A DNA stretch of 32,592 bases from a virus, in the IMG/VR virus record IMGVR_UViG_3300028416_000049, positions 1 through 32,592 of that record, one strand, 5' to 3'. The notes beneath the pieces were generated by a model. The model searched no databases. It was given only the letters and a program-made list of their open reading frames with translations, and was not told where the DNA came from. Within the stretch, counting starts at the first letter, position 1, and each line of letters begins with the position of its first letter. Positions 15,195-32,592 of the stretch are shown piece by piece. A program made the position numbers and the translations under genes.

Positions 15195-15198
15195 TCAT

Positions 15199-15206
15199 TA
15201 TAAATA
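15199..15206 (+). promoter_or_regulatory. T4-type late promoter box (TATAAATA)
   Basis: An exact TATAAATA lies 4 bases after one fibre stop codon and 37 bases before the ATG of the giant fibre gene, the right spacing for a late promoter with a short leader. GGGGAG at 15228-15233 then serves as ribosome binding site. Two gap-located exact boxes in the window (here and 8779) make chance occurrence less likely. Confidence 0.6.
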
Positions 15207-15243
15207 CAATAAAGAATAAGCCTAACTGGGGAGAGTGAACCGA

Positions 15244-18200
15244 ATGGCAAATGATAAGAAATTCATAGTAAAGAACGGTCTTCAATCGGAGAATAACGTT
15301 CTTGTCGGCACATCCTCTGATGATGGTGTAAATAAATTACAAGTATCAGGCACAGCCAAACTTACAAGCACAGGCTCATCGGTTCCAATTACTGTTGAGA
15401 ACACAGGAGGTATTGATACTCCTTTAATGGATTTTGCAGGCGGCGTAGGTGCATTACGAATTAAAAATACAGGTAGTGGTGACTACAGTATTTACAATAC
15501 CTCAGGCTCAAACGAAATAAAATTTAATGATAATACGGCAAGCGGTTTGGTATTCAAAGCCGGTAATAACGTCCAGCTTACAATTAATACTACTGAAGCG
15601 GATTTTACTAATGTTCCTTCCATTAACGGCGTACCAGTTTGGTATAGTGGTAACGATGGTACAGGATCAGGCTTAGATGCCGATTTTCTTGATGGAATTG
15701 ACTCATTATCGTTTGTTCGTTCTGACCAAAATGATACATTGGACGGTGATTATATTATCACTGGTAACCTTACAGTACAAGGTACACGTACCGAAGTTCA
15801 ATCAGAAACAGTTTTAATTGCCGATAACTTAATTACTCTTAATAGTAATTTTACTACAGGAGCTCCGACAGAAAATGCTGGTTGGGAAGTTCTTCGTGGT
15901 AATTTACCAAATTCATCTTTACAATGGGATGAAACAAATGATTGGTTTAAACTAATATCAGGAGGTACAGACTTAGGTCGTATTATTACAACTGATGATG
16001 AAGGTGCAGGTAACTTATTTGATGCTGACACGGTTGATGGATTAGAAGCTGCTCAGTTTATTCGCTCAGATGTTAACGATGTTGCTACAGGTAACTTAGA
16101 GTTTGAAGGTACAGTTGCTATTGGTGATGGAACTGGCTCAGCACTACTTACTATGCGTGGTGCGGGTAACAATAGAGTTATGGCATCAGACAATGGTAAA
16201 ATTGGTTTCCTTGATGGCGTATTTGCTTATCAAACATATTCAGATTTAAATGGAGATTGGACTGTTGGTCGTAATCTTATTGCTGATAAATTTTTAGACT
16301 CTGCTGATAATACATATCTATCTTGGCCTTCTGATACATCTAGGTTAAATAACATCAGTCTTGTTGGGACAATTTCGCACGATGGCGATGCTGATACATA
16401 TATTAATTTCCCGGCTGCTAACCAATTTGAAGTTTATACTGGTGGAGGTCAAAGGTTATTAATTACTGACACTGACGTAACATCATTAGTTGATGTAAAG
16501 GCTCCTCGCTATTTAGATAGCGGTAATAATGCATATCTTGGTGACTTTGCTGGTACATCTGTAATGAATACGATTGGAATTGACAGCGATCTTTTCCATA
16601 ATGGTGATACCGATACTAAGTTATCATTTGATACCGACACAATCAATTTAAACACAGGTGGAGCAACAAGATTAGCAATCACTGATACGTCGGTTACATC
16701 ATCAGTTGACTTAATCGCACCAAGGTTCCTTGACTCAAGTGACAATAACTTTTATGCTGATCCTGCCGGTACATCGGTATTTAATAACCTTGGGATTAAC
16801 GATGACTTATTCCATAATGGTGATACTAATAATAAGATTTCTTTTGGCGCAGATACGCAAACATTTACAACAAATGGCGCTGCACGATTAACTCTTAATA
16901 ATTCAAATGCAACATTCACGTATAATGTTCTTGCACCACAATTTGTCGACTCTGATAATAACTCATATTATGGTGACTTTGCTGGTACATCGGTAATGAA
17001 TAATATTAGTTTACAAGGTGATATTATTCATCAAGGAGATGCTGATACACTTATTACATTCTCTGCTGCAAACGAATTTAAAGTAAGAACTGGTGGTTCT
17101 GATAGATTATTCGTAAGAGATTCTGGTGTAACTGCCGTTGACAATATGAAAGCACCGGTATATTATGATACATCAGGAACCACAAATTATTTGGATCTTG
17201 GTCAAACTGGTGCTTCTGACTCACTTAGAGTTGGTGGTCGTATTAATGTTGGAGCAGGCACAGACTTTAATCTTGTAGATAATAACTCAGGCACTGGCGG
17301 AATTATGATCGCGCCATACGCAGGATTAGGTGCAACTACTAACCCTACAATTTCAATCGCTGGTAATAATGGCGGGCTATCGCTCTTATCACTTAATAGA
17401 ATTGACATTGGTGGTAATCCATACCAAAGTAAAAATGCTTATTGGGCAGAGTTCTTATCAGATGGCGCAGCGGCGTTCTCTATTCGTGGTGATAACTCAA
17501 GGAATGCTTACTTTATATCTGATGCAGACCAAGGAGTTTACTTCTACGATAGTGGTGCATCAACTAGATTAGCAATGCTTAGCACAGGGGATATTACAAT
17601 CGGTAATGACTCAGTCGCATATACTCAACATGATAATACACCGATATTAAATAGCGGAACAAAAACAGATAGTAAACTTCACATAGATGGATCGCTTCAA
17701 CTTAATGGTACTGATGATGCATATGTTGTCGGTAATGGAACTGCTACATTCCTAAGAATGGATGAACTTGGCTTTGGTCAAGGTGGCGGTTTCTATATGA
17801 ACGATGCCAACAATCTTAGAATTAGAAATAATAAATTACTCACATCAACAGGTAATGCTTCATTCGCTCAATACCTAGATGCAGATGATGTTTTATTCTA
17901 CGGTGACTTTGCTAGTACATCACGAATGAATAATATAAGTCTTGTCGGTGAAATTATACACGACGGAAATACTAATACTAAAATTGGTTTTGGCGCTGAC
18001 CAAATTATATTTACTGCCGGTGGAACCGCACAGCTTGATGTATATTCAACATATGCTGAAGCTGCAACAGATATGCGTTCTCCAATATTCTCTGATGCTG
18101 GTGGAACTTACAAGTTTGAGCCAAATACAGCCAATGCTCATAGGTTCACAACACCAACTGGTACTTTAGATATTGGATCTAAGGTTGCAGGGTCAGCTCA

Positions 18201-21200
18201 GTTTGATACAGACAGAGCAATATTCCTATTCAATAAGAGAGTGAATTTCAACGGCGGCATATCAGCAGCCGATGCCAATGACATGGCATATTTCCCTACT
18301 TATTACGATTATAATGACAACGCTTATTATGGTGACTTTGCTGGTACATCAGTAATGAATAGAATTGACTTAGACGATTATATTAGACATAAAGGTGATG
18401 AAGATACATACTTCGGTTTCTCAGCCGCTGGTATCTATAAATTGTTTATCAATAATACACAGAGATTAAACATTGATGATAACTCTGCTGACTTTAACCT
18501 TGATGTTTACGCTCCACGTTATTATGACTCAGGAAACAATGCTTATTATTTAGATCCTGCTTCAACATCTATACTTAATGTTGTTAGAACAAATCAAATC
18601 CAAATGGATGGCAGTTCTCTAACTATCGACTCACCATCAGGTCCTAAAGGGACTATTATGGTTGAAGGCGAAAGAGATGGTTATGCAGGTTATATGATTA
18701 GTAATGACTGGGGCTTTATATCCAGCGGTGCTACAGAGATGGGTCTGTATAACGAGACTGATAATGAATGGTCACTGACTGCAAACAGAAATAACTTTAC
18801 AAGATTACATTCAAATAACATTCACCAAATTGGTGCTGAAAACGGTTATGGTTCTGCTCCAAACAGTATGCGTTCTCCAATATTCTATGATTTAAATAAC
18901 GCTGCATTTTATATGCAACCGTCTGGTCAATCTAGACTTAAATCTGTTAAGGCAGGCGATAGCGCAATCTTTAATAATACTACATATCCACTTGAAGTTA
19001 AGTCTGCACAACAACGTTTGATCGTTTTACAAAATACTACTGCTGATGCTAACTTCCCATCTATATTCCACCAAACAAGAAACTCTCGCTCTGCGATGGG
19101 TATTTCGTTTAATAATATAGGTGAGCGTTTCTGGTTCTCAGAAAATGGTGACATACAAGCTTATGGCGCTGGTATATTTGGATCACTTGCTCTTAATGGT
19201 GGTAATGAAAATCTTGGATTGTTAAAAACGTATGGCTCTGGCCTTGCTGATATGAAAATGTTTGATGCATCAGATTATTGGGATAAACGAGTTATCCAAC
19301 CAATGCAAGGTATTGAAAATAGCGCAACTACATCTACCAGTGATTATGTTTTAAATGGTGATGGCCCATTCGCATCAAGTTATGTATTAAGAACTAACGG
19401 TTACAGAGATTTTGACTCTGACTTTATTCCAGTTGAGCCGGGAGAAACAATTTATGCAGAACAGGCAGTACGACGCATCAGTGGTACTGGCGGTTTATTT
19501 TACTTAGGTGTTAGACAATACGATAAAGATAAAAATCCAATTGCTGCTAACGATGGTATTGTATACTTCGCGGCATCTGCGGTTGACCACACCGCCACAG
19601 GCTGGACTGAATATAAAGGTGAGCATACGCTTCCAACTACCCATACGCCATTTAATGGTTCAGATGGTGCAGGTGTTCGGTTTGTTAGATTAGTTTCTCT
19701 TATGAACTTTGCGCCAAACGGTGCAACTCGTGAATTTGGTCCACCAATTCTAAAGAGAGTTGATGTACAATCGAGTATAAAAGCTGAAGGATTAACTGTC
19801 GTTACTGATGCTTCAATCGGTGGGGATCTTACTGTTACTGGTGATGTTTCTGCAGACAACATATCAGCAAATATTATTGATGCTGGTAGGTTTAGAGATC
19901 TTAACGATACTAACTATTATATTGAACCAAAAGGTCCATCTAAAGTCGCAGGTAACTGGGATTGGACAAATGGTAATATTAATAACGTAAACAAATTAAC
20001 ATTCAACGATCCGGGACCGTCTGAAGGACTAGCATGGAACGGCGGAAACCTATGGCAAATTTATGAGTCACCAAATGACTTAGCAACAAATTCTGGTGGT
20101 AATTTACAATTTACATCTGGCGCCGGTAATGGTACATATCGTTTACGTGTTGAGTCTGACGGTGATGTTTGGGCTGGACGTTATTCATATGCTCAAAGGT
20201 TTTATGACTCTAATAACTCAGCTTATTATGCTGACCCTGCTTCAACATCTGTATTTAACGAAATACGTGCTGATGAATATATCAGACATAATGGTGATAC
20301 AAATACATATATCAGATTTATTGGCGCTGACGATATGCAGTTGGTTGCTGGTGGAACTCAAATGCTTAGAATGGCAGAGGGTACTAACCCAGACAGACTA
20401 AGATTTGTTACTGACGATAACTGGACTGATGCTAATGGTGATTGGGCTATGTCTCGTAATGTTGTTGTAACAGGTACGCATACTGCTCTAAACGGTTCTT
20501 ATGCAAGTCGGTTCTATGACTCAGACGATAATGCTTATTATTTAGATCCTGCTTCAACATCTCTTACTAATGTTCTTCGTGCAAACGCAGTTCAATTTGG
20601 TGGCTCAACTTATCAATTAGATACATCTACTGGTAATTATGGTTCCATTAGTGTAACTGGTAATAAAGGTGGTTACGCAGGTTATGCTATTAACGATGAC
20701 TGGGTATTCATGTCAAGTGGAGCTGGTATTGCTGGTATCTATAACGATACGAACAATCAGTGGGCTACGATCTATCGCCAAGCAGGTGATACAGAACTTC
20801 ATTGGGCTGGTACAGAACAAGCCTCTACTAAAGATGGTTTCTTCTTAGGTACTAATCAGTTACGTTCACCAATTTGGTATGATAGTGATAACACTGCATA
20901 TAAAATTGATGGTAACGGTACTTCAAGACTATTAACACTACAAGTTGATAACGTAATCCAAGGTAATGTTGATGGTTATGCTCAAACATTGTTACGAAAA
21001 GATAACCGTATTATTGAACCAAATGAAGATACTGCGGGTCGACTAACGTTTGGTTTCACATCTTGGAACAACGATAACACTGCACCATATGCCGATTACT
21101 TACACTTAAGATCTTACACAGACTCTTCTGGTGGTTCAGATAACTTATTGATGTTTAAAAAGTCTGGTCGTGGTATGCGTCTATGGCAACAGTCATGGAA

Positions 21201-23631
21201 CTCAGGTACAGCCTATTCTTCTTATTCTGATATTGCTATCTATAACGCTAACCCAGGTGGTGGTACAAGTTCATACTTCTATGCAAGTAGATTAGTTGAC
21301 TCAGATAATACGTCTTTCTATATGGATCCATCAAATACATCAAAAGTTGATGTTATTCAGTTTGCTGATGGTGGTGAAGCTCAATTTATTACGGGTGCTG
21401 GTAATGTTCGTGGTTATATCCAAGCTACTGATACAAACGATAATCATTTAATTATTGCTACATCGGGTGGTGAAGACATCGCATTTAAAGATGGCGGATT
21501 ATCCGGAACAACAAATCTTCTCGTTCGTGGTGACGGTAATGTATTCGTAACAGGCGGAGCTTACGCTGGCAGATATTACGATAGAGATAGCACAGGTTAT
21601 TATGGTGACTTTGCTAGTACATCGGTAATGCACACACTTGATATTCGTTCTGAAGTATATAACGATGGTTGGTTCCGTAACGATACAAATGGTAGAGGTT
21701 TATATAACACTGCAACAGGTCAGCATTTCTATTCAGATAATGATGACTATTGGAACATTGCTGGTGGTTCATCTGCTAATGGTATACGATTTAGAGATGA
21801 AAACGCCGGTACTATTCGAGGTTATGTATATGCAAATAACTCGAATGATATTGGTTTCCTTAATAATAGTGCAGGATGGGCATTAAGAACTCGCGGTGGT
21901 ACAACTGAAGTATATGGTAATATGTATGCCGATGTTTATTACGATCGTAACAACTCTTCATACTTCTTAAATCCAGCCGGTGACAACAGTTTTGCTGGCG
22001 ATGTTCGAGCAAATAGGTTTATACATAAAGATGATGTATCACAAGACGATACGTTTGGTTTATACTTTTCATCTAATGAATCAGCTGCTTATGCTATTTA
22101 CCGTGAAGGCGGTGGTTGGTCATATCGTTACCCTGATTTAAGAATTGCTTTCCATACAGGTATTAAGTTTGGTGCTAATGCAAACTATAATGGTATGCGT
22201 TTCTATGATGACTACAACATGAATAATCAGGTTATGTCAATCAACAATGCGACTGATCCATTAGGTGCTAATGATGTTTATGTAAATAACTCATTACAAG
22301 CACGTAGTTCATTAAGAGCTCAAATATTCTATGACAATAATAACACGGGTCGTTATACAGACCCTGCATCTACATCTCAAATGAATGTTGTACGAGCTGA
22401 CCAGTTTGATATGCGTGATCGTGGTGACTTTATTACCTTATACGGTGATAACAGCACAAACCACTCAATCTCTGCTAGAGATCTTAATGGTAACACTTCT
22501 GACGATATTCGTATCAACTCATATGGTTCTGTGTATATTAACTTAGACTCAAATAACAACAATACTTCTGGCGCAGACTTCTATATTGGCCGACACGGTC
22601 AGGCAACTGGTGGTATTGGTAACTCTGACTTGTTTAGAGTTTATGGTGATGCAAACTATGCTTACTCAGGATTTAGCTTCCGTGCGCCTATCTTCTATGA
22701 CTCAAACAACACCGGTTATTATTGTGATCCAGCATCGTTTTCTAACTTTAATACAGGTATGAGAGGCAACGATATTTATGCTAGGAGTTGGCTCCGAAAT
22801 GATTCAGCACGCAATGGATTATATAACCAAGGTACAGGTGGACACTTTTATTCTTATCAAGGTCAGTATTGGGCTGCTACTGGTAACAATAACTCTTCAT
22901 CTATGTCTTTCCAACTTAGAGCGACATATAACGGTACAATGTGTCGTTGGATGTATGGTGACAGAACATGGTCCGGTGATTTAAATGCTGCAGGACAATG
23001 GCAGTTAAGAACTCGCCACCAAGATGGTTATTCACCATGTATTAGATTTGAAGAATCAGGTAACGAAAGCTGGACAGGTAACCCAGGAAACGACGTTGGT
23101 AAAATTGAATATCACTCAAACCGTTTCTATATCGTTGCAGGCGGAAACTCAAACAGAATTTGTCAGTTTAGACAAAATGGTTCTGATAGATCTTATATCG
23201 CAAACGATGGTGTGTTTGTTGGTACGGCTACGTCAGCAAGATGGGCTGACCTTGCAGAGAGATATGAAGCAGACGCGATTTATGGTCCTGGGTATATCCT
23301 AGGTATCGGCGGCGATAAAGAAGTAACATTGTATCAACCCGGAATGCCAGTTGCTGGTGCGGTTTCTACAAATCCTGCATACAGAATGAATGAGCATATT
23401 GAATATGACAACGATGACTCTATTGAGTCTAAGATGAACCCATTCGTTGCTCTTAAAGGACGTATTCCAGTTCTTATTAATGGCGATGCAACTAAAGGTC
23501 AATGGATTATTGCTGATCGTGATGGTAAAGGCCGTGCCGTAGACTATGGTACTGCTGGTATAAATAGCTTTGATATTATTGGTATTGCGATATCTGATAG
23601 TGAAAATGGTGAAGTAGAGGTTAAAGTATAG
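15244..23631 (+). CDS. Giant modular tail fibre protein, 2795 aa
   Basis: I start at the ATG at 15244 (MANDKKFIVKNGLQ) because GGGGAG at 15228-15233 is well spaced from it and this N-terminus is a common phage fibre opening; an in-frame GTG at 15235 would overlap that site. Residues about 174-238 form the NLTVQGTRTEVQSETVLIA...LQWDE module known from phage fibres. Most of residues 350-2510 is built from about 18 copies, some degenerate, of [RF]-[FY]-x-D-S-x-[ND]-N-x-Y-Y-x-D-[PF]-A-x-T-S-x-x-N, often followed by xHNGDxxTxIxF and a GGxxRL strand. The last ~135 residues (SARWADLAERYEAD..., VAGAVSTNPAYRMN, NPFVALKGRIPVLINGDATKG) resemble Peptidase_G2-type intramolecular chaperone domains; this is a tentative family assignment. 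It probably forms the longest fibre shaft, distal to the other fibre proteins, and only one base separates it from the next gene. Confidence 0.88.
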   Translation: MANDKKFIVKNGLQSENNVLVGTSSDDGVNKLQVSGTAKLTSTGSSVPITVENTGGIDTPLMDFAGGVGALRIKNTGSGDYSIYNTSGSNEIKFNDNTASGLVFKAGNNVQLTINTTEADFTNVPSINGVPVWYSGNDGTGSGLDADFLDGIDSLSFVRSDQNDTLDGDYIITGNLTVQGTRTEVQSETVLIADNLITLNSNFTTGAPTENAGWEVLRGNLPNSSLQWDETNDWFKLISGGTDLGRIITTDDEGAGNLFDADTVDGLEAAQFIRSDVNDVATGNLEFEGTVAIGDGTGSALLTMRGAGNNRVMASDNGKIGFLDGVFAYQTYSDLNGDWTVGRNLIADKFLDSADNTYLSWPSDTSRLNNISLVGTISHDGDADTYINFPAANQFEVYTGGGQRLLITDTDVTSLVDVKAPRYLDSGNNAYLGDFAGTSVMNTIGIDSDLFHNGDTDTKLSFDTDTINLNTGGATRLAITDTSVTSSVDLIAPRFLDSSDNNFYADPAGTSVFNNLGINDDLFHNGDTNNKISFGADTQTFTTNGAARLTLNNSNATFTYNVLAPQFVDSDNNSYYGDFAGTSVMNNISLQGDIIHQGDADTLITFSAANEFKVRTGGSDRLFVRDSGVTAVDNMKAPVYYDTSGTTNYLDLGQTGASDSLRVGGRINVGAGTDFNLVDNNSGTGGIMIAPYAGLGATTNPTISIAGNNGGLSLLSLNRIDIGGNPYQSKNAYWAEFLSDGAAAFSIRGDNSRNAYFISDADQGVYFYDSGASTRLAMLSTGDITIGNDSVAYTQHDNTPILNSGTKTDSKLHIDGSLQLNGTDDAYVVGNGTATFLRMDELGFGQGGGFYMNDANNLRIRNNKLLTSTGNASFAQYLDADDVLFYGDFASTSRMNNISLVGEIIHDGNTNTKIGFGADQIIFTAGGTAQLDVYSTYAEAATDMRSPIFSDAGGTYKFEPNTANAHRFTTPTGTLDIGSKVAGSAQFDTDRAIFLFNKRVNFNGGISAADANDMAYFPTYYDYNDNAYYGDFAGTSVMNRIDLDDYIRHKGDEDTYFGFSAAGIYKLFINNTQRLNIDDNSADFNLDVYAPRYYDSGNNAYYLDPASTSILNVVRTNQIQMDGSSLTIDSPSGPKGTIMVEGERDGYAGYMISNDWGFISSGATEMGLYNETDNEWSLTANRNNFTRLHSNNIHQIGAENGYGSAPNSMRSPIFYDLNNAAFYMQPSGQSRLKSVKAGDSAIFNNTTYPLEVKSAQQRLIVLQNTTADANFPSIFHQTRNSRSAMGISFNNIGERFWFSENGDIQAYGAGIFGSLALNGGNENLGLLKTYGSGLADMKMFDASDYWDKRVIQPMQGIENSATTSTSDYVLNGDGPFASSYVLRTNGYRDFDSDFIPVEPGETIYAEQAVRRISGTGGLFYLGVRQYDKDKNPIAANDGIVYFAASAVDHTATGWTEYKGEHTLPTTHTPFNGSDGAGVRFVRLVSLMNFAPNGATREFGPPILKRVDVQSSIKAEGLTVVTDASIGGDLTVTGDVSADNISANIIDAGRFRDLNDTNYYIEPKGPSKVAGNWDWTNGNINNVNKLTFNDPGPSEGLAWNGGNLWQIYESPNDLATNSGGNLQFTSGAGNGTYRLRVESDGDVWAGRYSYAQRFYDSNNSAYYADPASTSVFNEIRADEYIRHNGDTNTYIRFIGADDMQLVAGGTQMLRMAEGTNPDRLRFVTDDNWTDANGDWAMSRNVVVTGTHTALNGSYASRFYDSDDNAYYLDPASTSLTNVLRANAVQFGGSTYQLDTSTGNYGSISVTGNKGGYAGYAINDDWVFMSSGAGIAGIYNDTNNQWATIYRQAGDTELHWAGTEQASTKDGFFLGTNQLRSPIWYDSDNTAYKIDGNGTSRLLTLQVDNVIQGNVDGYAQTLLRKDNRIIEPNEDTAGRLTFGFTSWNNDNTAPYADYLHLRSYTDSSGGSDNLLMFKKSGRGMRLWQQSWNSGTAYSSYSDIAIYNANPGGGTSSYFYASRLVDSDNTSFYMDPSNTSKVDVIQFADGGEAQFITGAGNVRGYIQATDTNDNHLIIATSGGEDIAFKDGGLSGTTNLLVRGDGNVFVTGGAYAGRYYDRDSTGYYGDFASTSVMHTLDIRSEVYNDGWFRNDTNGRGLYNTATGQHFYSDNDDYWNIAGGSSANGIRFRDENAGTIRGYVYANNSNDIGFLNNSAGWALRTRGGTTEVYGNMYADVYYDRNNSSYFLNPAGDNSFAGDVRANRFIHKDDVSQDDTFGLYFSSNESAAYAIYREGGGWSYRYPDLRIAFHTGIKFGANANYNGMRFYDDYNMNNQVMSINNATDPLGANDVYVNNSLQARSSLRAQIFYDNNNTGRYTDPASTSQMNVVRADQFDMRDRGDFITLYGDNSTNHSISARDLNGNTSDDIRINSYGSVYINLDSNNNNTSGADFYIGRHGQATGGIGNSDLFRVYGDANYAYSGFSFRAPIFYDSNNTGYYCDPASFSNFNTGMRGNDIYARSWLRNDSARNGLYNQGTGGHFYSYQGQYWAATGNNNSSSMSFQLRATYNGTMCRWMYGDRTWSGDLNAAGQWQLRTRHQDGYSPCIRFEESGNESWTGNPGNDVGKIEYHSNRFYIVAGGNSNRICQFRQNGSDRSYIANDGVFVGTATSARWADLAERYEADAIYGPGYILGIGGDKEVTLYQPGMPVAGAVSTNPAYRMNEHIEYDNDDSIESKMNPFVALKGRIPVLINGDATKGQWIIADRDGKGRAVDYGTAGINSFDIIGIAISDSENGEVEVKV
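23559..23566 (+). promoter_or_regulatory. Possible internal late promoter box (TATAAATA)
   Basis: An exact TATAAATA lies inside the last codons of the giant fibre gene (reading Gly-Ile-Asn-Ser there), 66 bases before the ATG of the first CHxS-tail gene at 23633. If active it would start a separate transcript for the small paralogs and radical SAM genes. Because it is within coding sequence and a few such octamers are expected by chance, support is modest. Confidence 0.3.
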
Positions 23632-23632
23632 T

Positions 23633-24013
23633 ATGCCAACGTATGCACAGTTAAATACAAATGTAAGAAACCAATGTGGTCGACAATTAAGAACATTTGA
23701 TAGAACCGTAGGATTTTATATCAACGCTTATGTTAGAGGTTCTAACTGGGGAACAAGTTATACCAGAGGTCAATGGCATTATACGCGGTTTGAATACGTA
23801 AATGCAAACTACTATGTATATAACAATTATCTGGATAGCGGTATATACACTGGCGGAATTATTCGTTCTGGTGATGTTATTGATTCTATTCGTAGCGTTG
23901 TTCGTAGAACGGTTGATTTATGCGAAGGTAGAATATCTAACAGAACTATTAATGCATATTATTGCCACGCAAGTTGCCATTCTTCGTGTCATAGTTCGAG
24001 AGGGCGCCGCTAA
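23633..24013 (+). CDS. CHxS-tail protein 1: candidate radical SAM substrate, 126 aa
   Basis: I do not recognise a named family. The 126-residue product is Tyr/Asn/Arg-rich (VNANYYVYNNY near residues 56-66) and ends in CHASCHSSCHSSRGRR, with Cys at 111, 115 and 119, each followed by His: three CHxS units and then a basic end. Two further Cys (15 and 97) are absent from the paralog. My ungapped alignment with the next gene gives about 67% identity, concentrated in residues 18-64 and in the last ~35. It follows the giant fibre gene by one base and heads a run of radical SAM genes. A short protein with an invariant Cys/His/Ser tail beside SPASM-like radical SAM enzymes is what a modified-peptide precursor would look like, with the first ~95 residues as leader or carrier. 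Alternatively it is a fibre-tip or adhesin protein that is modified in place or binds metal through its tail. No Gly-Gly export or cleavage site is seen. Confidence 0.8.
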   Translation: MPTYAQLNTNVRNQCGRQLRTFDRTVGFYINAYVRGSNWGTSYTRGQWHYTRFEYVNANYYVYNNYLDSGIYTGGIIRSGDVIDSIRSVVRRTVDLCEGRISNRTINAYYCHASCHSSCHSSRGRR

Positions 24014-24396
24014 TGACTATGGATAGAAATGACGTTAGGTCGTGGGTAAGAACATATAGTGGTCAACAATTAAGAACGTTCGATAGAACGGTTGGAATTT
24101 ATGTTAACGCATATGTAAGAGCTAGTAGTGCTGCTACCAGTTATACTAGAGGACAGTGGCATTACCATAGATTTGAATATGTTAATGCAAACTACTATGT
24201 ATATGATAACTATGTAGATGGTGGTATCAATAGTGGTAATATTATTTACGGACAGGATATTGTTGATACATTGGAAGATATAACTAGAAGAACAGTTGAT
24301 CTAATTGAAGGAAGAATGTCAAACAGAACTATTAACGCATACTATTGTCACGCAAGTTGTCATACTAGTTGCCACAGTTCGAGAGGAAGAAGATAA
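24013..24396 (+). CDS. CHxS-tail protein 2: paralog of the preceding candidate substrate, 127 aa
   Basis: The start overlaps the previous stop as TAATG (24013); an in-frame ATG at 24019 is a possible alternative. Its 127 residues align without gaps to the preceding protein, with shared blocks QLRTFDRTVG, TSYTRGQWHY, RFEYVNANYYVY, RRTVDL and SNRTINAYY, and it ends CHASCHTSCHSSRGRR. Cys112, Cys116 and Cys120 are its only cysteines, which singles out the tail as the conserved reactive part. Its last codons (aga gga aga aga) also form the purine-rich ribosome binding site of the first radical SAM gene, so expression of substrate-like protein and enzyme appears coupled. Function is inferred as for its paralog: a substrate or carrier for the downstream enzymes, or a virion tip protein. 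The pair probably arose by tandem duplication. Confidence 0.8.
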   Translation: MTMDRNDVRSWVRTYSGQQLRTFDRTVGIYVNAYVRASSAATSYTRGQWHYHRFEYVNANYYVYDNYVDGGINSGNIIYGQDIVDTLEDITRRTVDLIEGRMSNRTINAYYCHASCHTSCHSSRGRR

Positions 24397-24397
24397 G

Positions 24398-25573
24398 ATG
24401 TCAATGCAAAAATCATATTGTAAGCAAATGCGGTACTCTGGTCCAGAAAGCCTAACACCGTCAGATGCTACTAAGTTTGATGTTCTAATTCAAATGGAAG
24501 TTTTAGCAGGATGTAATCACGGCTGCTTAGGTTGTTTCGTTGATAAAAACATAGACCCTGCTATGAACCAACAAATTATTGATAGAGCAAAAGAATTAGC
24601 AGATGGTGTAAAAAGAACTGGACTTAACTTAAGAGAGTTCGTTATTGGACCAACAGACTTTTTCACTGCTAAAAATACAGAGTCAGTATTAAATAATTCA
24701 GTAGTCCAAGAAATTATGAGAGAACATACTGGCGCTCGTATCGCGGCACCTGCTAAATTTGATTTGGCTACTATGGATAAAGTAAAAGAAATCTTTGCCG
24801 TACTTGATGATGAGGATAAGTATCGTCGCGAAATGATTATCGAATTTATTATGCCAATCGGTAGAGTAGATCAGATGTTAAACGATGACGAATATTTTAA
24901 TAACGTTATGGAAAAGGTAGAGTTCTTTAAAAATAATACACCAAAACAAATGGATTGGTCGTGGACATTACAGGCTTCTAACGTTGTTGGTAGAAAAATT
25001 GATAAAGAAACTTATAATAAAATTATTCAAAAATCTGTAAACGAATATGAAACAATTGTAGAAATGAACCCTGCTTTCTCTAGAGCCAATTCACAATTGA
25101 TACAAAGAAAGAATTTATTTGGTTGGAACGATTTCCTTGGTAGAGTTATTGATAAAGATAATGCGCAAGAAACCGTTATGTCAATGGCTAATCTTTATTG
25201 TAACTCAATTAACTTTGTTGGACTTACTATTGTCCCAGGAGAAAATGGTCCAACTACACACCTAAATGTAATGCTGCATGAGCAAGCGTTTTTCTTAGGT
25301 AATAAAAATTTAGATGTTACTGGTTTAACATTCGAGCAAATATTAGATCGTAAAAATGAACTAGTGACAAAAGGTATAAATAGGTCTAGTAAAGTAAAAG
25401 ATTGTGCTGACTGTAAATTTGCAGTTGCCTGTGCAAGCAGATTAATCTTTGAAGCCCAAGAATCATTAAACGTCAACGGTTGTGTATTGAACAAAGATGT
25501 CCTTGCAGAATATAACCCGTATGATTTTACTTGGAACGATGACGCAATAGAAAAATTAGGAGTAAGATCATGA
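24398..25573 (+). CDS. Radical SAM / SPASM-like protein A, 391 aa
   Basis: The frame is open back to 24305, but I start at the ATG at 24398 (MSMQKSYCKQ) because it lies two bases after the previous gene with AGGA at 24384-24387 upstream, and because it places the first cluster Cys at residue 39, as in three of the four sister proteins. CNHGCLGC (C39, C43, C46) is a CX3CX2C motif that would bind the 4Fe-4S cluster used to split S-adenosylmethionine. VIGPTDFF (GPTD at 84-87) lies where radical SAM enzymes usually have GGE. C336, C339, C345 and C362 make a C-terminal CX2CX5CX16C motif like the SPASM/twitch region that binds extra Fe-S clusters in peptide-modifying enzymes. The adjacent CHxS-tail proteins are the obvious candidate substrates. 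The reaction (thioether, C-C crosslink, epimerisation or other) cannot be told from sequence. Confidence 0.85.
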   Translation: MSMQKSYCKQMRYSGPESLTPSDATKFDVLIQMEVLAGCNHGCLGCFVDKNIDPAMNQQIIDRAKELADGVKRTGLNLREFVIGPTDFFTAKNTESVLNNSVVQEIMREHTGARIAAPAKFDLATMDKVKEIFAVLDDEDKYRREMIIEFIMPIGRVDQMLNDDEYFNNVMEKVEFFKNNTPKQMDWSWTLQASNVVGRKIDKETYNKIIQKSVNEYETIVEMNPAFSRANSQLIQRKNLFGWNDFLGRVIDKDNAQETVMSMANLYCNSINFVGLTIVPGENGPTTHLNVMLHEQAFFLGNKNLDVTGLTFEQILDRKNELVTKGINRSSKVKDCADCKFAVACASRLIFEAQESLNVNGCVLNKDVLAEYNPYDFTWNDDAIEKLGVRS

Positions 25574-26673
25574 TTGGGCAGAGTTTATATTACTTAAATA
25601 ATAAAAAGTATATTACGAATACACAAAACGTTGAAACAGTAATTGGTGAATTAAATTCTTTTTACCACACTGCTGAACCAAGACGAATTACTATTGTACA
25701 GCCTGACCTTGTAGACTCATTTCTTCAGCCTGCTGAGTATGAAGCGCTGGCAGAAGGTGCACGATCAGGCTCATCAGAACTATTAGATTTTGAAGAATGG
25801 GATACTATTGCCAATCCTACTTATATTCAAAATAGTGATAAGCGTATTCTTATGTTTACAGACGAAGAGGATATGATTAAAGTATTTGCAAAATATACTG
25901 CTGGTTTGTTAACATCATGTGGTTTTTATCCTGACGCAGATGCAACAACAATTAATGCGATGGTTGCTCATTATATGGAAGCAGTTATTAACCAAGATTT
26001 AGTATTATCTTTAATGAGCAACTCGACAGTTTATAACGATGTTAGAAACCATACAAATACTTTATTAAATGCTGAAGGCGAAACACCTTGGGTAATTACA
26101 TATCAGAATGGTAAAAACTTTAGTTATGACTTGCTATTCTTCTTAAACGATTTCTATTCATGTGCAGGCGTTTCAGAATTGATTGTTGAAAAATTTACTA
26201 TTCATTCACCAGTTATGGCAAAAGATGTTATGGAACACTTTACTTCACGTCGTCACTACTCGGCATATATTATGTCAGTTATTGATTATATGAATGCTAA
26301 TGCAACTGAAGAAAATGGCTGGGCTACAGATAAACAACAATTCTTTAAAGACGTATATGTAAATGCTGCTAATAAATCTAACTATACATTAGCGTTTTAT
26401 AAATTAGAAGAAATGTGGAATAAAGTTAAAGACGACGCTGCCTTTATAGCCGTTCATCAAAATAAAGCTGATACGACTGCTGACGGTTGGGAATACATGG
26501 ATTTATATACTGAAATCAATAACGTGTTCCCTATTGTTAAAAAAGTTTTAGAAAGAAACTTTAACACAGATAATATTAGAGAAGACTTGGCATTAATTAA
26601 CACAGATGTTCAGTTCTTTTCAAAACGTCAAAACAGAATTCCATATTTAATTCATAAATACCCATTGATATAA
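25570..26673 (+). CDS. Unknown protein between radical SAM genes, 367 aa
   Basis: I do not recognise a family. The start overlaps the previous stop as ATGA (25570-25573), implying translational coupling to radical SAM protein A. The 367-residue product is soluble, acidic and mixed alpha/beta, with no signal peptide or membrane segment and no Cys cluster: only Cys at about 117 (TSCGFYP) and 198 (YSCAGV). The region from about 100 onward reads as mostly helical, with the aromatic stretch LLFFLNDFYSCAGVSEL near 187-203. Its place inside the run of radical SAM genes suggests an accessory role such as scaffold, substrate-recognition or chaperone protein, but nothing in the sequence proves that; an ordinary phage structural or assembly protein is also possible. 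Confidence 0.75.
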   Translation: MIGQSLYYLNNKKYITNTQNVETVIGELNSFYHTAEPRRITIVQPDLVDSFLQPAEYEALAEGARSGSSELLDFEEWDTIANPTYIQNSDKRILMFTDEEDMIKVFAKYTAGLLTSCGFYPDADATTINAMVAHYMEAVINQDLVLSLMSNSTVYNDVRNHTNTLLNAEGETPWVITYQNGKNFSYDLLFFLNDFYSCAGVSELIVEKFTIHSPVMAKDVMEHFTSRRHYSAYIMSVIDYMNANATEENGWATDKQQFFKDVYVNAANKSNYTLAFYKLEEMWNKVKDDAAFIAVHQNKADTTADGWEYMDLYTEINNVFPIVKKVLERNFNTDNIREDLALINTDVQFFSKRQNRIPYLIHKYPLI

Positions 26674-26688
26674 GAAAGTGATTTTATT

Positions 26689-27525
26689 ATGAGTGAAGAG
26701 CAAACTTTATATACGCTGCCATTAGCACCGCAAAATTTAGTTGAAATATATAAATTAAAAGAAGACAACGAAAACTTTGTTTTATGGGTAGATTATTTAG
26801 CATCAAAAGAAAAGTTATCAGCCAAACATATTCTAATCTATTTGGCCAATACTAATTTTAAAACAACCTTTGCGCAGGTTGACGAAGAACTATTAATAGA
26901 ATATATTAAATCAGACTTTATCGTAGAAGCACCACTGCTATCACGGTTTGTTGTAATGGCAATCAAAGTAAGATACATGTATGAGTTTAATGGCTTAGAA
27001 GAACAATTACTTGGCCTCTTTAGTAAAGAACAATTGCACGACTTCGTAGACAAAAACTATGAACTTATAGAAGATGTTTGTAATGCAATGGCTGAACTTA
27101 TTCCATTCACACTCTGCAAATTTTACGAAAACTTATCAGATGAAAACAAAGCAATTGAAGTTGATGTAAAAGAAGCTGTTGAGCAAATTGAAGTAACTGA
27201 CAAGCCAGCAAATTGTGGTCCAAACGTTGCACGCCTTCTTATAGATGGCTGGGATGGTTTCCTATTAGTTTGTTCTATGCTTGGATTTAAACAAGAATAT
27301 AATAAACAGATGTATAATGATAAACCTGCATACTTTGGTAAAGATTTGTTTTTCTTATTGACACAAAGTAATATTACTAGTAACATTTTATCAATGATGC
27401 CTCCTGGGTTTATTAACAGCGTTGAAATTCCAAAACCAAAGTCTGATGAAGATTTACAAGCTGAAATCGAAGCAGAGGCTAAAGCCAATGCCGCTAGTGT
27501 AGCCGATGATAGTAAAACTGAATAA
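26689..27525 (+). CDS. Unknown acidic helical protein between radical SAM genes, 278 aa
   Basis: I do not recognise a family. The 278-residue product looks largely helical (residues about 15-160), then has a segment with NCGPNVARLLIDGWDGFLLVCSMLGF near 174-199, and ends in an acidic, Ala/Glu-rich low-complexity tail (about 250-278). There is no signal peptide and no Cys motif. It follows the 367-residue gene by 15 bases and overlaps the next radical SAM gene by 20 bases. The ribosome binding site is weak (AAGAAAG at about 26673-26679). Co-transcription with five radical SAM genes makes it a candidate partner, for example a substrate-binding adaptor, but this rests on position alone. Confidence 0.75.
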   Translation: MSEEQTLYTLPLAPQNLVEIYKLKEDNENFVLWVDYLASKEKLSAKHILIYLANTNFKTTFAQVDEELLIEYIKSDFIVEAPLLSRFVVMAIKVRYMYEFNGLEEQLLGLFSKEQLHDFVDKNYELIEDVCNAMAELIPFTLCKFYENLSDENKAIEVDVKEAVEQIEVTDKPANCGPNVARLLIDGWDGFLLVCSMLGFKQEYNKQMYNDKPAYFGKDLFFLLTQSNITSNILSMMPPGFINSVEIPKPKSDEDLQAEIEAEAKANAASVADDSKTE

Positions 27526-28528
27526 AACATATGCAGGTTATTATACGTATGATAAAGATAAGAGCCCTATTAATACAGACTTCTTACGTACTGAAATAAA
27601 CCTAGACATATTACATGGCTGCGCTCAGTCGTGCCCAGGATGTTTTATTCCACGTAAAAACCTTACTAAACCTGAATACTTAGAAACATTATACAATTTA
27701 TTAATGGACGGCGCATATTATCCTGACGAGATAACGATTGGACCTACTGACATTTTTGATGCAGAGAACTTCCATGAAATTATGAAACATCCATATATGA
27801 AAAAGCTTTACGAAATATCAGCAGTTGGATTTACATCAACATTACTTCAATCATATGCCGAGATAAGAACTAAACTTGATATGATATGGAGTTTATATGA
27901 AGGTGTTCATAGAGTACCTGATATTGATTTTAAAATCGTTTTAGATATAGACAAGTACCTTGATGGAGAACTAGACGATTGGAACCGTAAACTTAAAATG
28001 TTTGAGTTAGGTTCAGTTCAATTTAGAGTTAATTATCATAAAGATGTATTTAAGCGTATCACATATAACGACTTATGTCAACGGATATATGATGACTATA
28101 ATGCACCAGTTATAATTACACCGTCGTTTTTAACAGATAGGAACGCGCGTGGTAAAGTAGAACAACACCTTGCAAACTTTAGACGTGAAATGATTGAGCA
28201 AGATATTGATAAGAAATGGCTTAACCTTTATACATTTTTTGATGCAAAGTTTAATGGATATGGCTGCCAAAATTATAGCTTCTATAATAATAAACTATAT
28301 TTAAATCCATTCTTGTATGATGTTATTATTCAAAGAACTCCAAATTTTGAAACAACAATGGATGCGAATACTTTATATGAAAATATAGATTATGCTCAAC
28401 AGGTTGATGATTGTAATGGCTGCGAGTATATGATGAGTTGTGCTGAACGTAATATACATTTATATATGGAGTCGCGAGGATTAGATAGCTGCGTCGCATT
28501 AAAGGAATATATGTATGCCTCTGATTAA
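27506..28528 (+). CDS. Radical SAM / SPASM-like protein B, 340 aa
   Basis: The ATG at 27506 overlaps the previous gene by 20 bases and puts the first cluster Cys at residue 39, matching three sister proteins, which supports the start. CAQSCPGC (C39, C43, C46) is the CX3CX2C cluster motif, and TIGPTDIF (GPTD 79-82) follows. A later block, TPSFLTDRNARGKVEQHL, matches NPAFSR, IPSVSR, LPSVVR and NPSFFR blocks in the paralogs, and LYLNPFLYD aligns with the [WYF]-x-[LT]-[SN]-P-F-[MIV]-Y motif of proteins C, D and E. The C-terminus has C303, C306, C312 and C329 (CX2CX5CX16C). At 340 residues it is the shortest of the five. The enzyme type is clear; the substrate and reaction are inferred from the neighbouring CHxS-tail proteins. 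Confidence 0.85.
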   Translation: MIVKLNKTYAGYYTYDKDKSPINTDFLRTEINLDILHGCAQSCPGCFIPRKNLTKPEYLETLYNLLMDGAYYPDEITIGPTDIFDAENFHEIMKHPYMKKLYEISAVGFTSTLLQSYAEIRTKLDMIWSLYEGVHRVPDIDFKIVLDIDKYLDGELDDWNRKLKMFELGSVQFRVNYHKDVFKRITYNDLCQRIYDDYNAPVIITPSFLTDRNARGKVEQHLANFRREMIEQDIDKKWLNLYTFFDAKFNGYGCQNYSFYNNKLYLNPFLYDVIIQRTPNFETTMDANTLYENIDYAQQVDDCNGCEYMMSCAERNIHLYMESRGLDSCVALKEYMYASD

Positions 28529-29672
28529 AAATAATCTCTATTATGAGATGACGACAGAGACCCAAACTAAGCCCGTCAGCGCTGTTAAAATTCAAATGGA
28601 TGTACTAGACGGTTGTCACCACAAGTGCCCTGGATGCTTTGTACATCGACGGGGTAACTCTAGTGATAAAAGCCAAGTATATATGGCAAAAGAGTTCATA
28701 CGTTCTATTACTGACCAAGGGATACTTGTTGATGAAATATTAATTGGTCCTACAGACTTTTTAGCATCAGAAAATTTCTATCAAGTAATGCCAGAACTCG
28801 TAGATATCATTAATGAAAACTCACCTATCCTAGCTTTTGTCTCTACTCTTATTGATGGTGATATTAAAAAGTTTTGCGATTTCCTTATTGATAATATTAA
28901 TTTAGATACTGAAATAGAAATTGGTATCGCTACAAATCCACATAAGTTTTTTACTGACGAATACACAAAACATATATCAGATATGTTAGCCTATATAGAT
29001 ACACACATTCAACATGAGGTTACTTATACGTTTGTTGTTAACATTAAAGATTATGGATTAGATTATGAGGCATTGCATGATCAGGCTGTAAAACGTTTTG
29101 ATACTATATTAGATTTTATTCCGTCAGTATCTCGTTCGCATAAAGCAAACATAATCTTAAAAACGCTTGATGAGTTTAACGAATACTTTAGCACATGGCA
29201 CCAAGAGTCCAAGCTAAACAATATTATGGTAGACCATTCTCACGCAGGTATTAATTACACTGTATTAAACTACAAACGCGGTGAATGGTATTTAAGTCCA
29301 TTTATGTATGAGAACATGGCGATATATGATGATATGTTTAAAGTCAAATCTTTTGATGATGTTGTTCCAATGGTTGAACATCAAATTAAAAGAGCAAAAG
29401 GTACTGAATGCGAGGATTGCCCATTATTCTTTAGTTGTTATAACAGAAAAATAATAATGTTAAGGGATTACCTTGGAGTAGACCGCTGCATAGCACCAAA
29501 AGAGAATATGCTAAATAATATAAACAATTATAATGGTCCTGCTCAGACAATGTATGGATGGGATGGTTATTCTGTTGAAAACGATAAGAACGGTTATCGT
29601 AAAAAGTTTTTAGTTACTGATGATGACGATCCAGAACTAAAACGATTAAAGGATATATCATATGTTAAATAA
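28515..29672 (+). CDS. Radical SAM / SPASM-like protein C, 385 aa
   Basis: The ATG at 28515 is preceded by AAAGGA (28501-28506) at good spacing and overlaps protein B by 14 bases; a later in-frame ATG at 28548 is less likely. CHHKCPGC (C34, C38, C41) is the CX3CX2C motif and LIGPTDFL (GPTD 78-81) follows. IPSVSRSHKANIILKTL and WYLSPFMYENMAIYDD are the shared family blocks. C299, C302, C308 and C325 form CX2CX5CX16C. About 60 residues beyond the last Cys (GPAQTMYGWDGY... ending in a DDDD stretch and basic tail) are absent from protein B and from the last paralog, and may contact a partner. The tight overlap with its neighbours suggests these enzymes are made together, perhaps acting in sequence or as a complex. 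Confidence 0.85.
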   Translation: MPLIKNNLYYEMTTETQTKPVSAVKIQMDVLDGCHHKCPGCFVHRRGNSSDKSQVYMAKEFIRSITDQGILVDEILIGPTDFLASENFYQVMPELVDIINENSPILAFVSTLIDGDIKKFCDFLIDNINLDTEIEIGIATNPHKFFTDEYTKHISDMLAYIDTHIQHEVTYTFVVNIKDYGLDYEALHDQAVKRFDTILDFIPSVSRSHKANIILKTLDEFNEYFSTWHQESKLNNIMVDHSHAGINYTVLNYKRGEWYLSPFMYENMAIYDDMFKVKSFDDVVPMVEHQIKRAKGTECEDCPLFFSCYNRKIIMLRDYLGVDRCIAPKENMLNNINNYNGPAQTMYGWDGYSVENDKNGYRKKFLVTDDDDPELKRLKDISYVK

Positions 29673-30816
29673 TGATTGGAAAAATATTGTAGACGGTGGG
29701 CGAGGTGAGGAATTTACTTCAATCGACAATATGAAAGAATATAAAATACAGGTCAACCTTGAAATACTCGAAGGTTGTTCATATATGTGTCCGGGTTGTT
29801 TTGTTAAACGTAAAGGTAATTGGAACCCAAACTCAATCGCAACATTTCATTCCTTGGCATTTGAATTAAAAGATAGAACTGATATTGTATTAGACGACAT
29901 TGTGATTGGCCCAACCGACTTTTATGGTGCTCAAAATTTAGAAGAGATTATTAATAATCAAAGGCTTGCTGATGCCATATCCATGATGCCTGAAGATAAT
30001 AGAAATATCCAACATAACTGTTCTATACTCGGATCATTATCTGAAAAAGATATTGAAGGTAAAATAAAAGCTATTGAAAACTCAATGCTAGGCGAAGTAG
30101 TCGAAGCATGGGATGTACAAATTGCTTTGGATTTAAATAGATTAATGAATGATCAGGTATACCTAGATGCACTTGATGAAAGAGTTGAAACATTTAAAAA
30201 TAGTTCTTTAAACTTTGAAATAAGTATGGCTACTAATATCGTGCAAGGTGTAGAAGATATATTATTTCCTGCTATTGAATTTGTTAGAGCTAGGTATGAA
30301 ACAGTAATCGAAGTATTACCGTCAGTAGTACGTTCTTTTAATCATAGCGCAAAGCACGGAGACAAACTATTTGAATGGAATGATATGTTAACTCGATTGG
30401 CTGCAGATCCACATAAGTTTAAAAACAAATTCCATTTCTTACAAGGTGACGTATCACATAAAGCGTTTCATTATTCTGTAGTTAGTATATACCACGGAGA
30501 TATGTATTTGTCGCCATTCATATATGAGAATGCTCAAATCCATACAGATGATTTTAAAGTTGATAATAGTTGGCTTTGGTTACCTGATGCCGATATTGTT
30601 GATTATATATTAAACAAAAAGAACGAGATTGTCAATAGCCAAATTGAAAAAAGTTCTGAAAAAGAGTGTGGCAGTTGTAAGTATTTAAATATATGTGCGA
30701 ATAGAATGGTTCCAATGATTATGGATACTGTGTTTGATGGAAGAAAAGAATGCATCTTAAATAAAGATGTAATTGGTTTATATGATGATGAGGTATACCA
30801 TGGGAATAGTTACTAA
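29662..30816 (+). CDS. Radical SAM / SPASM-like protein D, 384 aa
   Basis: The ATG at 29662 overlaps protein C by 11 bases, with AAAGGA at 29648-29653 upstream. CSYMCPGC (C39, C43, C46) is the cluster motif and VIGPTDFY (GPTD 83-86) follows. LPSVVRSFNHSAKHGDKL and MYLSPFIYENAQIHTD are the shared blocks. The C-terminal motif is C336, C339, C345 then C364, that is CX2CX5CX18C, two residues longer before the last Cys than in the other four. No transmembrane or secretion signal is present, so it acts in the infected cell's cytoplasm. Its N-terminal KRKGNW stretch after the cluster resembles HRRGNS in protein C, suggesting these two are the closest pair, by eye. Confidence 0.85.
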   Translation: MLNNDWKNIVDGGRGEEFTSIDNMKEYKIQVNLEILEGCSYMCPGCFVKRKGNWNPNSIATFHSLAFELKDRTDIVLDDIVIGPTDFYGAQNLEEIINNQRLADAISMMPEDNRNIQHNCSILGSLSEKDIEGKIKAIENSMLGEVVEAWDVQIALDLNRLMNDQVYLDALDERVETFKNSSLNFEISMATNIVQGVEDILFPAIEFVRARYETVIEVLPSVVRSFNHSAKHGDKLFEWNDMLTRLAADPHKFKNKFHFLQGDVSHKAFHYSVVSIYHGDMYLSPFIYENAQIHTDDFKVDNSWLWLPDADIVDYILNKKNEIVNSQIEKSSEKECGSCKYLNICANRMVPMIMDTVFDGRKECILNKDVIGLYDDEVYHGNSY

Positions 30817-31828
30817 CAATAAGCGTGCTGCACAAGCTGATAAAGATTTTGATTTATCCTTTAGTGAAGGACATGAAATCAAAGTACAATTTAATTGCGA
30901 AGTATTATCTGGCTGCGAGTTTAAATGTAAAGGTTGTTTTGTCAATAAACTCGGATCAAATATGGGATCATTTGATAGATTAAACAACGCCATTGATTTA
31001 TTTAATACCAATGGCTATCGCGTGTCAACCATTAATATTGGTCCAACTGATTTATTTGGTAATAATAATATCACCGAGTTGTTGAAAGACGAAACATTCC
31101 GAGAGTGTTTAAGTAAAGTAACTACTATTCAATTCGTTACAACATTAGAAAAGATTGATTTTAATATTATTGAAATGCTGAATAGTATTCCAAAGGCCGA
31201 GGGATTTATGTATGATTGTAACATAGCCCTGCAGCCGCCAGTTAATTGGAATGTACTTGAATATAAATTAGGAATATTAAATGAGTTGACAGATGATTTA
31301 AATTATTATATGGTATATAATATGGGTAATGATGATGTTGAGAATAATAAAGTACTCGAGATGTCAAAACTTGTTGAGGAACGGTTTGATTCTATACTTA
31401 CTTTAAATCCATCATTCTTCCGAGCACCTAAATCTAAAGTGCAAAAGCATCTTATTGAGAAATGGAAAAACTATGACTTTGCCGACGACCTTATGCCTAA
31501 AACATTTATTGACCAAGCACAAGGTGGTTCTTTAGAATTAAATTATACTTATTGTAACGAACGTTTCTTTTGGACACCATTCGTATATGATATTGCTTTA
31601 ATTGGTACAGATAATTTTGTGGTCAAAGATGAAAACGATATTGAGTCATGGACTCAAGTAAAAGAAAATAAGTTTATGTCACAGTTGACTTATTCAAGTG
31701 AAACTGACAATTGTGCTTCTTGTAAAAATTTAATGACATGTATTGATAAAGGTGTCCTATCTTATATGGAACACCATTCACTTACTGCGTGTGTGTTTCC
31801 GGGAGTGATAACGTCCGATAAAGGTTGA
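30800..31828 (+). CDS. Radical SAM / SPASM-like protein E, 342 aa
   Basis: The frame extends back to a TTG at 30773, but I choose the ATG at 30800 (MGIVTNNKRA): GAGG at 30790-30793 is 6 bases upstream, and this start puts the cluster Cys at residue 39 as in proteins A, B and D. CEFKCKGC (C39, C43, C46) is the CX3CX2C motif; NIGPTDLF (GPTD 81-84) follows; NPSFFRAPKSKVQKHLI and FFWTPFVYDIALIGTD are the shared blocks; C305, C308, C314 and C331 form CX2CX5CX16C. It overlaps protein D by 17 bases and is the last plus-strand gene. Its 3' end overlaps the 3' end of the minus-strand gene by 51 bases, so its C-terminal ~16 residues are constrained by two genes. Confidence 0.85.
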   Translation: MGIVTNNKRAAQADKDFDLSFSEGHEIKVQFNCEVLSGCEFKCKGCFVNKLGSNMGSFDRLNNAIDLFNTNGYRVSTINIGPTDLFGNNNITELLKDETFRECLSKVTTIQFVTTLEKIDFNIIEMLNSIPKAEGFMYDCNIALQPPVNWNVLEYKLGILNELTDDLNYYMVYNMGNDDVENNKVLEMSKLVEERFDSILTLNPSFFRAPKSKVQKHLIEKWKNYDFADDLMPKTFIDQAQGGSLELNYTYCNERFFWTPFVYDIALIGTDNFVVKDENDIESWTQVKENKFMSQLTYSSETDNCASCKNLMTCIDKGVLSYMEHHSLTACVFPGVITSDKG

Positions 31829-32497
31829 TGGATATACGTGTTGTATTCTATGCCATTTCTCTTTTGATTCTACCTCATGCATTTTAATATCAAGTTCCAT
31901 TTCGTGCATTGGGTATATTGACATTAAAGGCGTACCATATTTAAGTGTAACAGTATATTCTTCGTCTTTAATTGGAAACGCTAAGAATACGTTTAATGTG
32001 TGTTGGTCATAAAAGTTTGTAATCCCAGGTGATATTAAAATATCGTGCTTACGCAAATCCTCACTATAATGGCATTCAGTAATCATAAACTCTTTACGTT
32101 CGCTTGCCTTAACAGCCCAAGGTCCATGTAATTTAAATACAGTTCTATTTGGATATAATGTATCGCCAAATTGTTTACGTTCATGTTGAGATCCATCAAG
32201 TTGACCAGAATTATGTAATGGCTCAATGCACTCAACATTGCCATTTGGTTTTACTCTAAAAATACCATCTGACCACAATTTAAGAACGATAGGCTTACGC
32301 ATATAATCAACAATTCCTGGGCATGTTTTAATCGTCGGAGTTGGAACGTTAACGCCAACCCTAGACCTAAATTGGTCATACGAATTCTTAATAGATTTCC
32401 ACCACGTTGGTGGCTTAGTTCTGGCTTTAATTGGTTGTAAGTCTACAAGTGTTTGGTGTGCTGTGTAAAAATCAAGTTTAAGTTTTTTCTTTATCAT
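31778..32497 (-). CDS. Unknown phage protein, 239 aa, minus strand
   Basis: The minus-strand ATG at 32497 has AGGA about 8 bases upstream (reading ACAGGATTTAATTATG). The 239-residue product is soluble and basic at both ends, with a Trp/Pro-rich start (TKPPTWWKSI near 27-36), then CPGIVDYMRKPIVLKLWSDG near 59-78, GPWAVKASERKEFMI near 125-139, SPGITNFYDQHTLNVFLAFP near 154-173 and YGTPLMSIYPMHEMEL near 184-199. This order of motifs (WW..., CPGIVDYM, PG-FYD-H, GTPLxxIxP) reminds me of a beta-rich family of phage proteins of unknown function (DUF6065-like), but I cannot confirm it. It is the first gene of opposite orientation, so it marks the end of the long plus-strand late unit. Confidence 0.75.
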   Translation of the reverse strand: MIKKKLKLDFYTAHQTLVDLQPIKARTKPPTWWKSIKNSYDQFRSRVGVNVPTPTIKTCPGIVDYMRKPIVLKLWSDGIFRVKPNGNVECIEPLHNSGQLDGSQHERKQFGDTLYPNRTVFKLHGPWAVKASERKEFMITECHYSEDLRKHDILISPGITNFYDQHTLNVFLAFPIKDEEYTVTLKYGTPLMSIYPMHEMELDIKMHEVESKEKWHRIQHVYPSTFIGRYHSRKHTRSK

Positions 32498-32592
32498 AAT
32501 TAAATCCTGTTATCAAATTTTGACCTGTTTTGTCCATATAATTAAACCACATTCTCATTATGCAGTCAGGTAAATCGCGTTCTCTGTTTTTC
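32443..32592 (-). CDS. Possible 3' end of a minus-strand gene entering from the right edge
   Basis: On the minus strand a frame is open from the window edge to a TAG whose complement is at 32443-32445. It reads about 49 residues including RERDLPDCIMRMWFNYMDK and TGQNLITGFNYDKEK, which looks like ordinary protein sequence. It would overlap the start of the 239-residue gene by 55 bases. The other two minus-strand frames stop within about 35 bases of the edge, so one of them could instead be the true end of an upstream gene; with only 150 bases this cannot be settled. Confidence 0.3.

Follow-up and report, generated by a model that had tools for sequence, protein, structure and literature searches.

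What does a phage do with a row of radical-SAM enzymes encoded directly behind its tail fibre gene? The question is raised by positions 23633 to 31828 of a 32,592-nucleotide stretch of viral DNA (IMG/VR record IMGVR_UViG_3300028416_000049, positions 1 to 32,592), which we call the window. The first-pass annotation had read this locus as two paralogous proteins with a CHxS tail, five radical-SAM paralogs and two unknown proteins, encoded by nine co-directional and mostly overlapping genes that start one base past a giant tail fibre gene. When the gene positions were re-derived this description was borne out in every part. The fibre gene (15235-23631, 2798 aa, with matches to PHROG tail fiber proteins) is followed by the genes of the two CHxS-tail proteins, which are the proposed substrates: A1 (23633-24013, 126 aa) and A2 (24013-24396, 127 aa, 67% identical to A1). 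Then come the radical-SAM enzyme R1 (24398-25573, 391 aa), the conserved unknown protein U1 (25570-26673, 367 aa), the near-universal partner U2 (26689-27525, 278 aa) and the radical-SAM enzymes R2 (27506-28528), R3 (28515-29672), R4 (29662-30816) and R5 (30800-31828). All these genes are on the + strand and free of internal stops, and the gaps between them, from the fibre through R5, are +1, -1, +1, -4, +15, -20, -14, -11 and -17. For R1 the list of open reading frames gives a longer TTG start, which is mechanical, and the form of 391 aa was adopted.

Both A proteins of the window end in the form CHxSCHxSCHSSRGRR, with CHASCHSSCHSSRGRR encoded at 23963-24010 and CHASCHTSCHSSRGRR at 24346-24393 (both + strand). 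The wider consensus is CHxSCHxSCHxSR[G/S]RR, a stretch of 16 residues which is almost invariant. In an alignment of 52 sequences, 12 of the 14 invariant columns fall within these last 16 residues. Within the tail neither the arginines nor any of the three CH pairs vary, and synonymous codons are mixed at the very same columns. As C, H and R stay fixed while their codons vary, the constraint acts on the protein, and the conservation is far from chance. Where a match is genuine, the tail always forms the very C-terminus of its protein. The bodies in front of it measure 110-350 residues and are unrelated between the two types of cassette described below; with the tail removed, profile comparison gives no match between the A proteins of type I and those of type II (hhalign 9%). 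The tail is thus the sole part common to both types and represents a module on different bodies. Structure prediction gives A2 a helix-strand-strand-helix body and a tail of low confidence. Foldseek found no significant match for A2, adhesin-like or other, in the PDB and among viral structures, and profile searches with A, with U2 and with the R enzymes found none among solved structures.

The five enzymes of the window are only 18-26% identical in pairwise comparison. All of them keep C-x3-C-x-G-C, GPTD and a C-terminal C-x2-C-x5-C-x(16-18)-C, and the C-x3-C-x2-C motif is present in 156 of 157 distinct members of the family. With the Pfam Radical_SAM model (PF04055) R1 and R3 stay below the cut-off (best 19.3 bits against 29.5; E = 1.9e-5 for R3) and R2, R4 and R5 give no match, so that R1-R5 are assigned as radical-SAM enzymes by their motifs and by a profile match to r1, an enzyme with a SPASM domain (hhalign 89%, E = 2e-6). 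The latter has the C-x3-C-x2-C core together with the SPASM cysteines, features which it shares with the radical-SAM/SPASM maturases (anaerobic sulfatase maturase, PapB, FxsB, YhhB and CteB-type enzymes). Among solved structures the anaerobic sulfatase maturase and other maturases of peptides or proteins come closest to r1, and its best relatives in both NCBIfam and the PDB are radical-SAM/SPASM RiPP and protein maturases. All its NCBIfam matches, however, fall far short of the cut-off, the highest reaching 51 bits where 349 are required. The present case also differs from these maturases in the fibre setting, in the many enzymes per locus and in the putative substrate, which would be the C-terminal tail of a larger protein.

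The enzyme genes continue past the edge of the window. Positions 15013-32592 are found with 0 mismatches in contig IMGVR_UViG_3300024335_000010, of which the window is the first half. At the edge lies the 3′ end of the radical-SAM gene r2 (32478-32592, - strand), and three more genes of this kind come after it. On the - strand of the longer contig the order is r2, p143, r4, r4, r1 and a cupin gene, and a 2OG oxygenase is encoded on the + strand beyond the cupin gene. With five enzymes in the window and four past its edge the region holds nine radical-SAM genes. The contig also carries a T4-type Gp23 capsid gene, which makes the phage of the window T4-like. We refer to this arrangement as type I (A, A, R, U1, U2, R, R, R, R in the window and r2/p143/r4/r4/r1/cupin beyond it). 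In type II the order is cupin, r1, A, U2, U1-like, r2, 2OG oxygenases, r4, r4 and p143, sometimes with two R genes. One contig of 151 kb (IMGVR_UViG_3300025138_000014) has cassettes of both types (L119 and L033).

Among the partners of the enzymes, U2 stands out. Of the 95 loci for which 1.5 kb or more of downstream DNA is available, 91 encode U2, which is hence a near-obligate partner. Its model is helical and confident (pLDDT 92), and a Foldseek search of the PDB gave no significant match; the U2 alignment is too divergent for a viral scan. U1 may likewise have a role in the cassette. Homology of U1 to its positional counterpart in type II loci is unsupported (hhalign 17%), and an assignment of U1 as LicT was dismissed at 21 bits against a cut-off of 300. 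The cupin protein of phage DT01 exceeds the Pfam cut-offs for both Cupin_2 and JmjC_2, a fold which includes protein hydroxylases. Some cassettes contain radical-SAM proteins with a B12-binding domain (L208:13417-15252 and L197:14572-16311), which suggests a methylation step that may be part of the cassette. In the cassette of phage FLC8, two adjacent genes (L038:10104-11319) look by eye like dihydrofolate reductases, and the annotated start of gp75 (L038:8001-9035) appears to lie 3′ of its cysteine motif, the homologous frame beginning earlier.

On what, then, could so many enzymes act? Radical-SAM genes of phages have been reported before, and the first-pass annotation went too far in its impression that no described phage has five such enzymes. 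Six are reported for phage DT01, whose authors saw a link with host metabolism and the repair of DNA (PMC8541153), and twelve for one marine genome of T4-like type, where they were read as Fe-S genes (PMC5332604). The papers on FLC6 and S13 list the genes one by one, and the pelagimyophage and Tara papers describe radical-SAM cassettes in the host-recognition region, with twelve in one genome. DT01, FLC6 and S13 all carry the cassette described here. The published annotations of DT01 and the marine genome would suit a reading in which the enzymes act elsewhere (on the fibre, host surface glycans or nucleotides, or in Fe-S metabolism) and the tail is an unmodified metal-binding spike which just shares the operon; the CH repeats could indeed bind metal. 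The evidence that bears on this reading is how strictly tail and enzymes occur together.

A search with R3 yielded 25 type I loci, and the tail gene is present in all 21 with enough upstream DNA; the other four begin too near the contig end. With r1 alone, a search in which the tail was not used, 393 relatives were found and 80 kept. The tail is present in 76 of 76 loci with downstream DNA, the remaining four contigs ending within 250 bases, and these 76 tails end in RGRR (65 loci) or in RSRR or RARR (11 loci). A tblastn search of the named phages with A2 found nothing. The A bodies are too divergent for this method, and the tail was therefore sought as a DNA pattern, which was found in at least 100 viral stretches and 27 genome stretches. 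The pattern presupposes the spacing of the CH pairs and thus cannot show this spacing to be invariant, which the other tests can. We looked for CHxS-tail homologues in phages without radical-SAM genes, the case which the first-pass annotation had named as evidence against its proposal. Among the matches listed, and with duplicates removed, all 123 distinct tail loci are on contigs with radical-SAM genes. For 120 of them these genes lie within the locus DNA examined, and the three remaining contigs have at least four each. Finally, r1 and U2 match the same seven of 50,697 named phage records (DT01, FLC6, FLC8, S13, Phosso and two records of Atu_ph07), and the tail is found in all seven. The link between enzymes and tail is very strong, and their co-occurrence in these searches is obligate. 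As judged from the genes present, a tail protein beside a battery of radical-SAM enzymes appears in many large phages and in some predatory bacteria.

About ten pattern matches on genome contigs do not have the tail at the C-terminus (e.g. L161, L163, L168, L172 and L181) and were discarded as chance matches in G+C-rich or repeated DNA. The MAG matches Rhodobacteraceae Water_Bin34, Rickettsiales MED606 and Euryarchaeota SP339 are apparently phage contigs caught in binning and for this reason do not enter the cellular count. Similarly, L171, L175, L183, L164 and L158 are contigs of bacterial or archaeal MAGs which resemble phage contigs binned alongside.

The reading of the tail as an unmodified spike with enzymes acting elsewhere is, in our view, unlikely. 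It does not lead one to expect zero exceptions in the 123 loci among the matches listed and in the 76 loci found with r1, nor a tail which stays constant on bodies that are not related and accompanies the enzymes both in separate phage lineages and on the chromosomes of bacteria. Furthermore, r1 resembles protein maturases and not nucleotide enzymes.

The fibre gene in front of the tail proteins is also no peculiarity of the window. The window fibre has at its C-terminus a domain which we term ADLAERY, and the same domain recurs 5′ of the tail proteins in other phages. A homologue is located upstream of the tail gene in 57 of the 80 loci with enough DNA, at a distance of 0-13 nt in 24 loci and of about 1.4-2.7 kb in 33 more. 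In phage Atu_ph07 the tail protein is gp170, flanked by r1 (gp171), a cupin-like protein (gp172), U2 (gp169) and r2 (gp168). The virion proteome of this phage, as determined by ESI-MS/MS, falls mostly into CDS 31-76, 170-215 and 284-329 (PMC6102473). The second cluster closes with gp215, which both numberings give as the major capsid protein; as they agree at this point, the cluster begins exactly at the tail protein gp170. Its place at the boundary of an MS-defined cluster suggests that gp170 is probably a virion protein, and the A protein in general is probably located in the virion. Both the upstream fibre genes and the position of gp170 thus support the virion setting which had been proposed from the window alone. 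In T2-like phages the gene of a small adhesin, gp38, is found directly 3′ of the distal fibre gene, as are the A genes here. The fibre-associated tail protein is probably an adhesin. No similarity of sequence or fold to the T4-type fibre adhesins was found, and unlike these A has a CHxS tail and comes with enzymes.

Two features of a radical-SAM RiPP pathway are found at these loci, namely a radical-SAM enzyme beside the precursor gene and a conserved Cys-rich core at the C-terminus of the precursor. Since short proteins beside radical-SAM/SPASM enzymes are the hallmark of RiPPs, the tail might be the core of a diffusible RiPP and the body a large leader, so that the modified 16-mer would be released in the course of infection and act on the host or on competitors. 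The basic end of the tail with its R-x-R-R motif and two exporter-type ABC proteins by one Bdellovibrionota cluster (L195) point in this direction. However, no leader peptidase or exporter was recognised among the phage cluster genes scanned, the ABC proteins being found only by L195, and scans for PqqD/RRE with Pfam and NCBIfam at permissive E gave no match, although such scans may miss an RRE that has diverged. As leaders, bodies of 110-350 residues would moreover be long, and those of the two types are unrelated; neither the recurrent fibre context nor gp170 at the start of a virion cluster suits a released peptide. We regard it as quite improbable. The His-Xaa-Ser (HxsA/B/C) system is similar in having His-x-Ser repeats beside paired radical-SAM enzymes, but in the present tail the unit is Cys-His-x-Ser and an R-x-R-R end is fixed. 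We rejected this system on the model scores: the enzymes of DT01 reach 26 and 26 bits with HxsB and HxsC against cut-offs of 370 and 268, the HxsB and HxsC models do not match R1-R5, and the NCBIfam models of the HxsA precursor and of HxsD have no match over cut-off among the window and DT01 proteins.

We suggest instead, as a fairly probable reading, that the cassette is a RiPP-like maturation set which acts on the tail of a virion protein associated with the fibre. The small A proteins would be made straight after the tail fibre. The last 16 residues of A would then serve as substrate of the clustered radical-SAM enzymes (r1 with its SPASM domain, r2, r4 and the GPTD family) and be chemically modified by them, the cupin/JmjC-like protein and the 2OG-Fe(II) oxygenases assisting in most phages. 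U2, to judge by its near-universal presence, may offer the substrate to the enzymes or keep the complex together. The body of A would anchor the protein to the fibre or the virion, and the modified tail would be displayed and probably touch the host surface, as a small adhesin caps the T4-type fibre. Thioether or C-C crosslinks between Cys, His and Ser would be a fitting chemistry, as would a modified metal-binding spike. A phage has from several to a dozen of these enzymes, more than the three repeats of the tail, which counts against a maturation cassette.

The radical-SAM set could also be a metallocentre maturase: instead of crosslinking residues it would assemble a centre of metal or Fe-S on tails that have multimerised. 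Metal-bearing fibre tips of phages are known, and the three CH units of each chain could stack as metal sites. Putative iron-binding domains in the fibre of a marine phage are the topic of one paper (PMC11705849). Some variants of the tail have, however, only two CH units. We also know of no radical-SAM set of this size for a simple His/Cys metal site, and consider a metallocentre maturase very unlikely.

For maturation of the tail as we propose it, the literature offers no precedent in the range covered: neither the tail strings nor phage radical-SAM RiPPs are described there, bioRxiv and subscription journals being outside the scope of the search, and no paper was found that links these radical-SAM genes to a precursor, a substrate or the fibre. 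Our best reading is that a maturation cassette with a CHxS tail as substrate is undescribed in the literature searched. If the proposal is true, post-translational radical chemistry would join the means by which phages build their host-contact structures, and the four to twelve radical-SAM genes of some large phages, hitherto without a pathway, would have a purpose. Adsorption would gain a testable chemical basis, and the fibres of phages and those of predators would be connected through the cassette that Bdellovibrionota share. The loci offer a candidate for a new RiPP-like enzyme set, the U2 fold without match in the PDB and a 16-residue module on unrelated proteins.

In Bdellovibrionota the U2 profile matches 17 of 369 genomes, with 12 of 129 in one order, and the cluster is syntenic in five genomes (L201 and L203-L206). 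The L201 cluster lies inside a contig of 4.15 Mb with cytochrome genes on its flanks and is thus chromosomal. The tails keep CH...CHxSRGRR with a changed middle, e.g. YCHGNFPPPCHGSRGRR, and variants with only two CH units exist. Near the clusters L195, L201 and L202 a protein is encoded which has a pilin-like N-terminus and an S74-chaperone-like C-terminus; for L195 and L201 both the pilin (N_methyl) and the S74 part are confirmed by Pfam. With such pilin-S74 fibre genes nearby, the chromosomal version would plausibly serve prey attachment. That the arrays and their new-fold partner form a widespread class of virion-protein maturation and turn the tail into a crosslinked or metal-bearing peptide of the fibre tip, and that predators share the machinery for prey attachment, is a tentative extension of our proposal, to which we would give somewhat less than an even chance. 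The Bdellovibrio MAT fibres are comparable in that predatory bacteria have fibre proteins with an S74 end, but the proteins near the cassette are pilin-like (N_methyl and S74); radical-SAM enzymes go unmentioned in the paper on these fibres (PMC10769870). The two ABC proteins of exporter type near one Bdellovibrionota cassette are located at L195:390-3783. An S74-like chaperone region is also seen by eye in the window, at the end of a collagen-like (GxQGxQG) protein encoded at 4018-8718.
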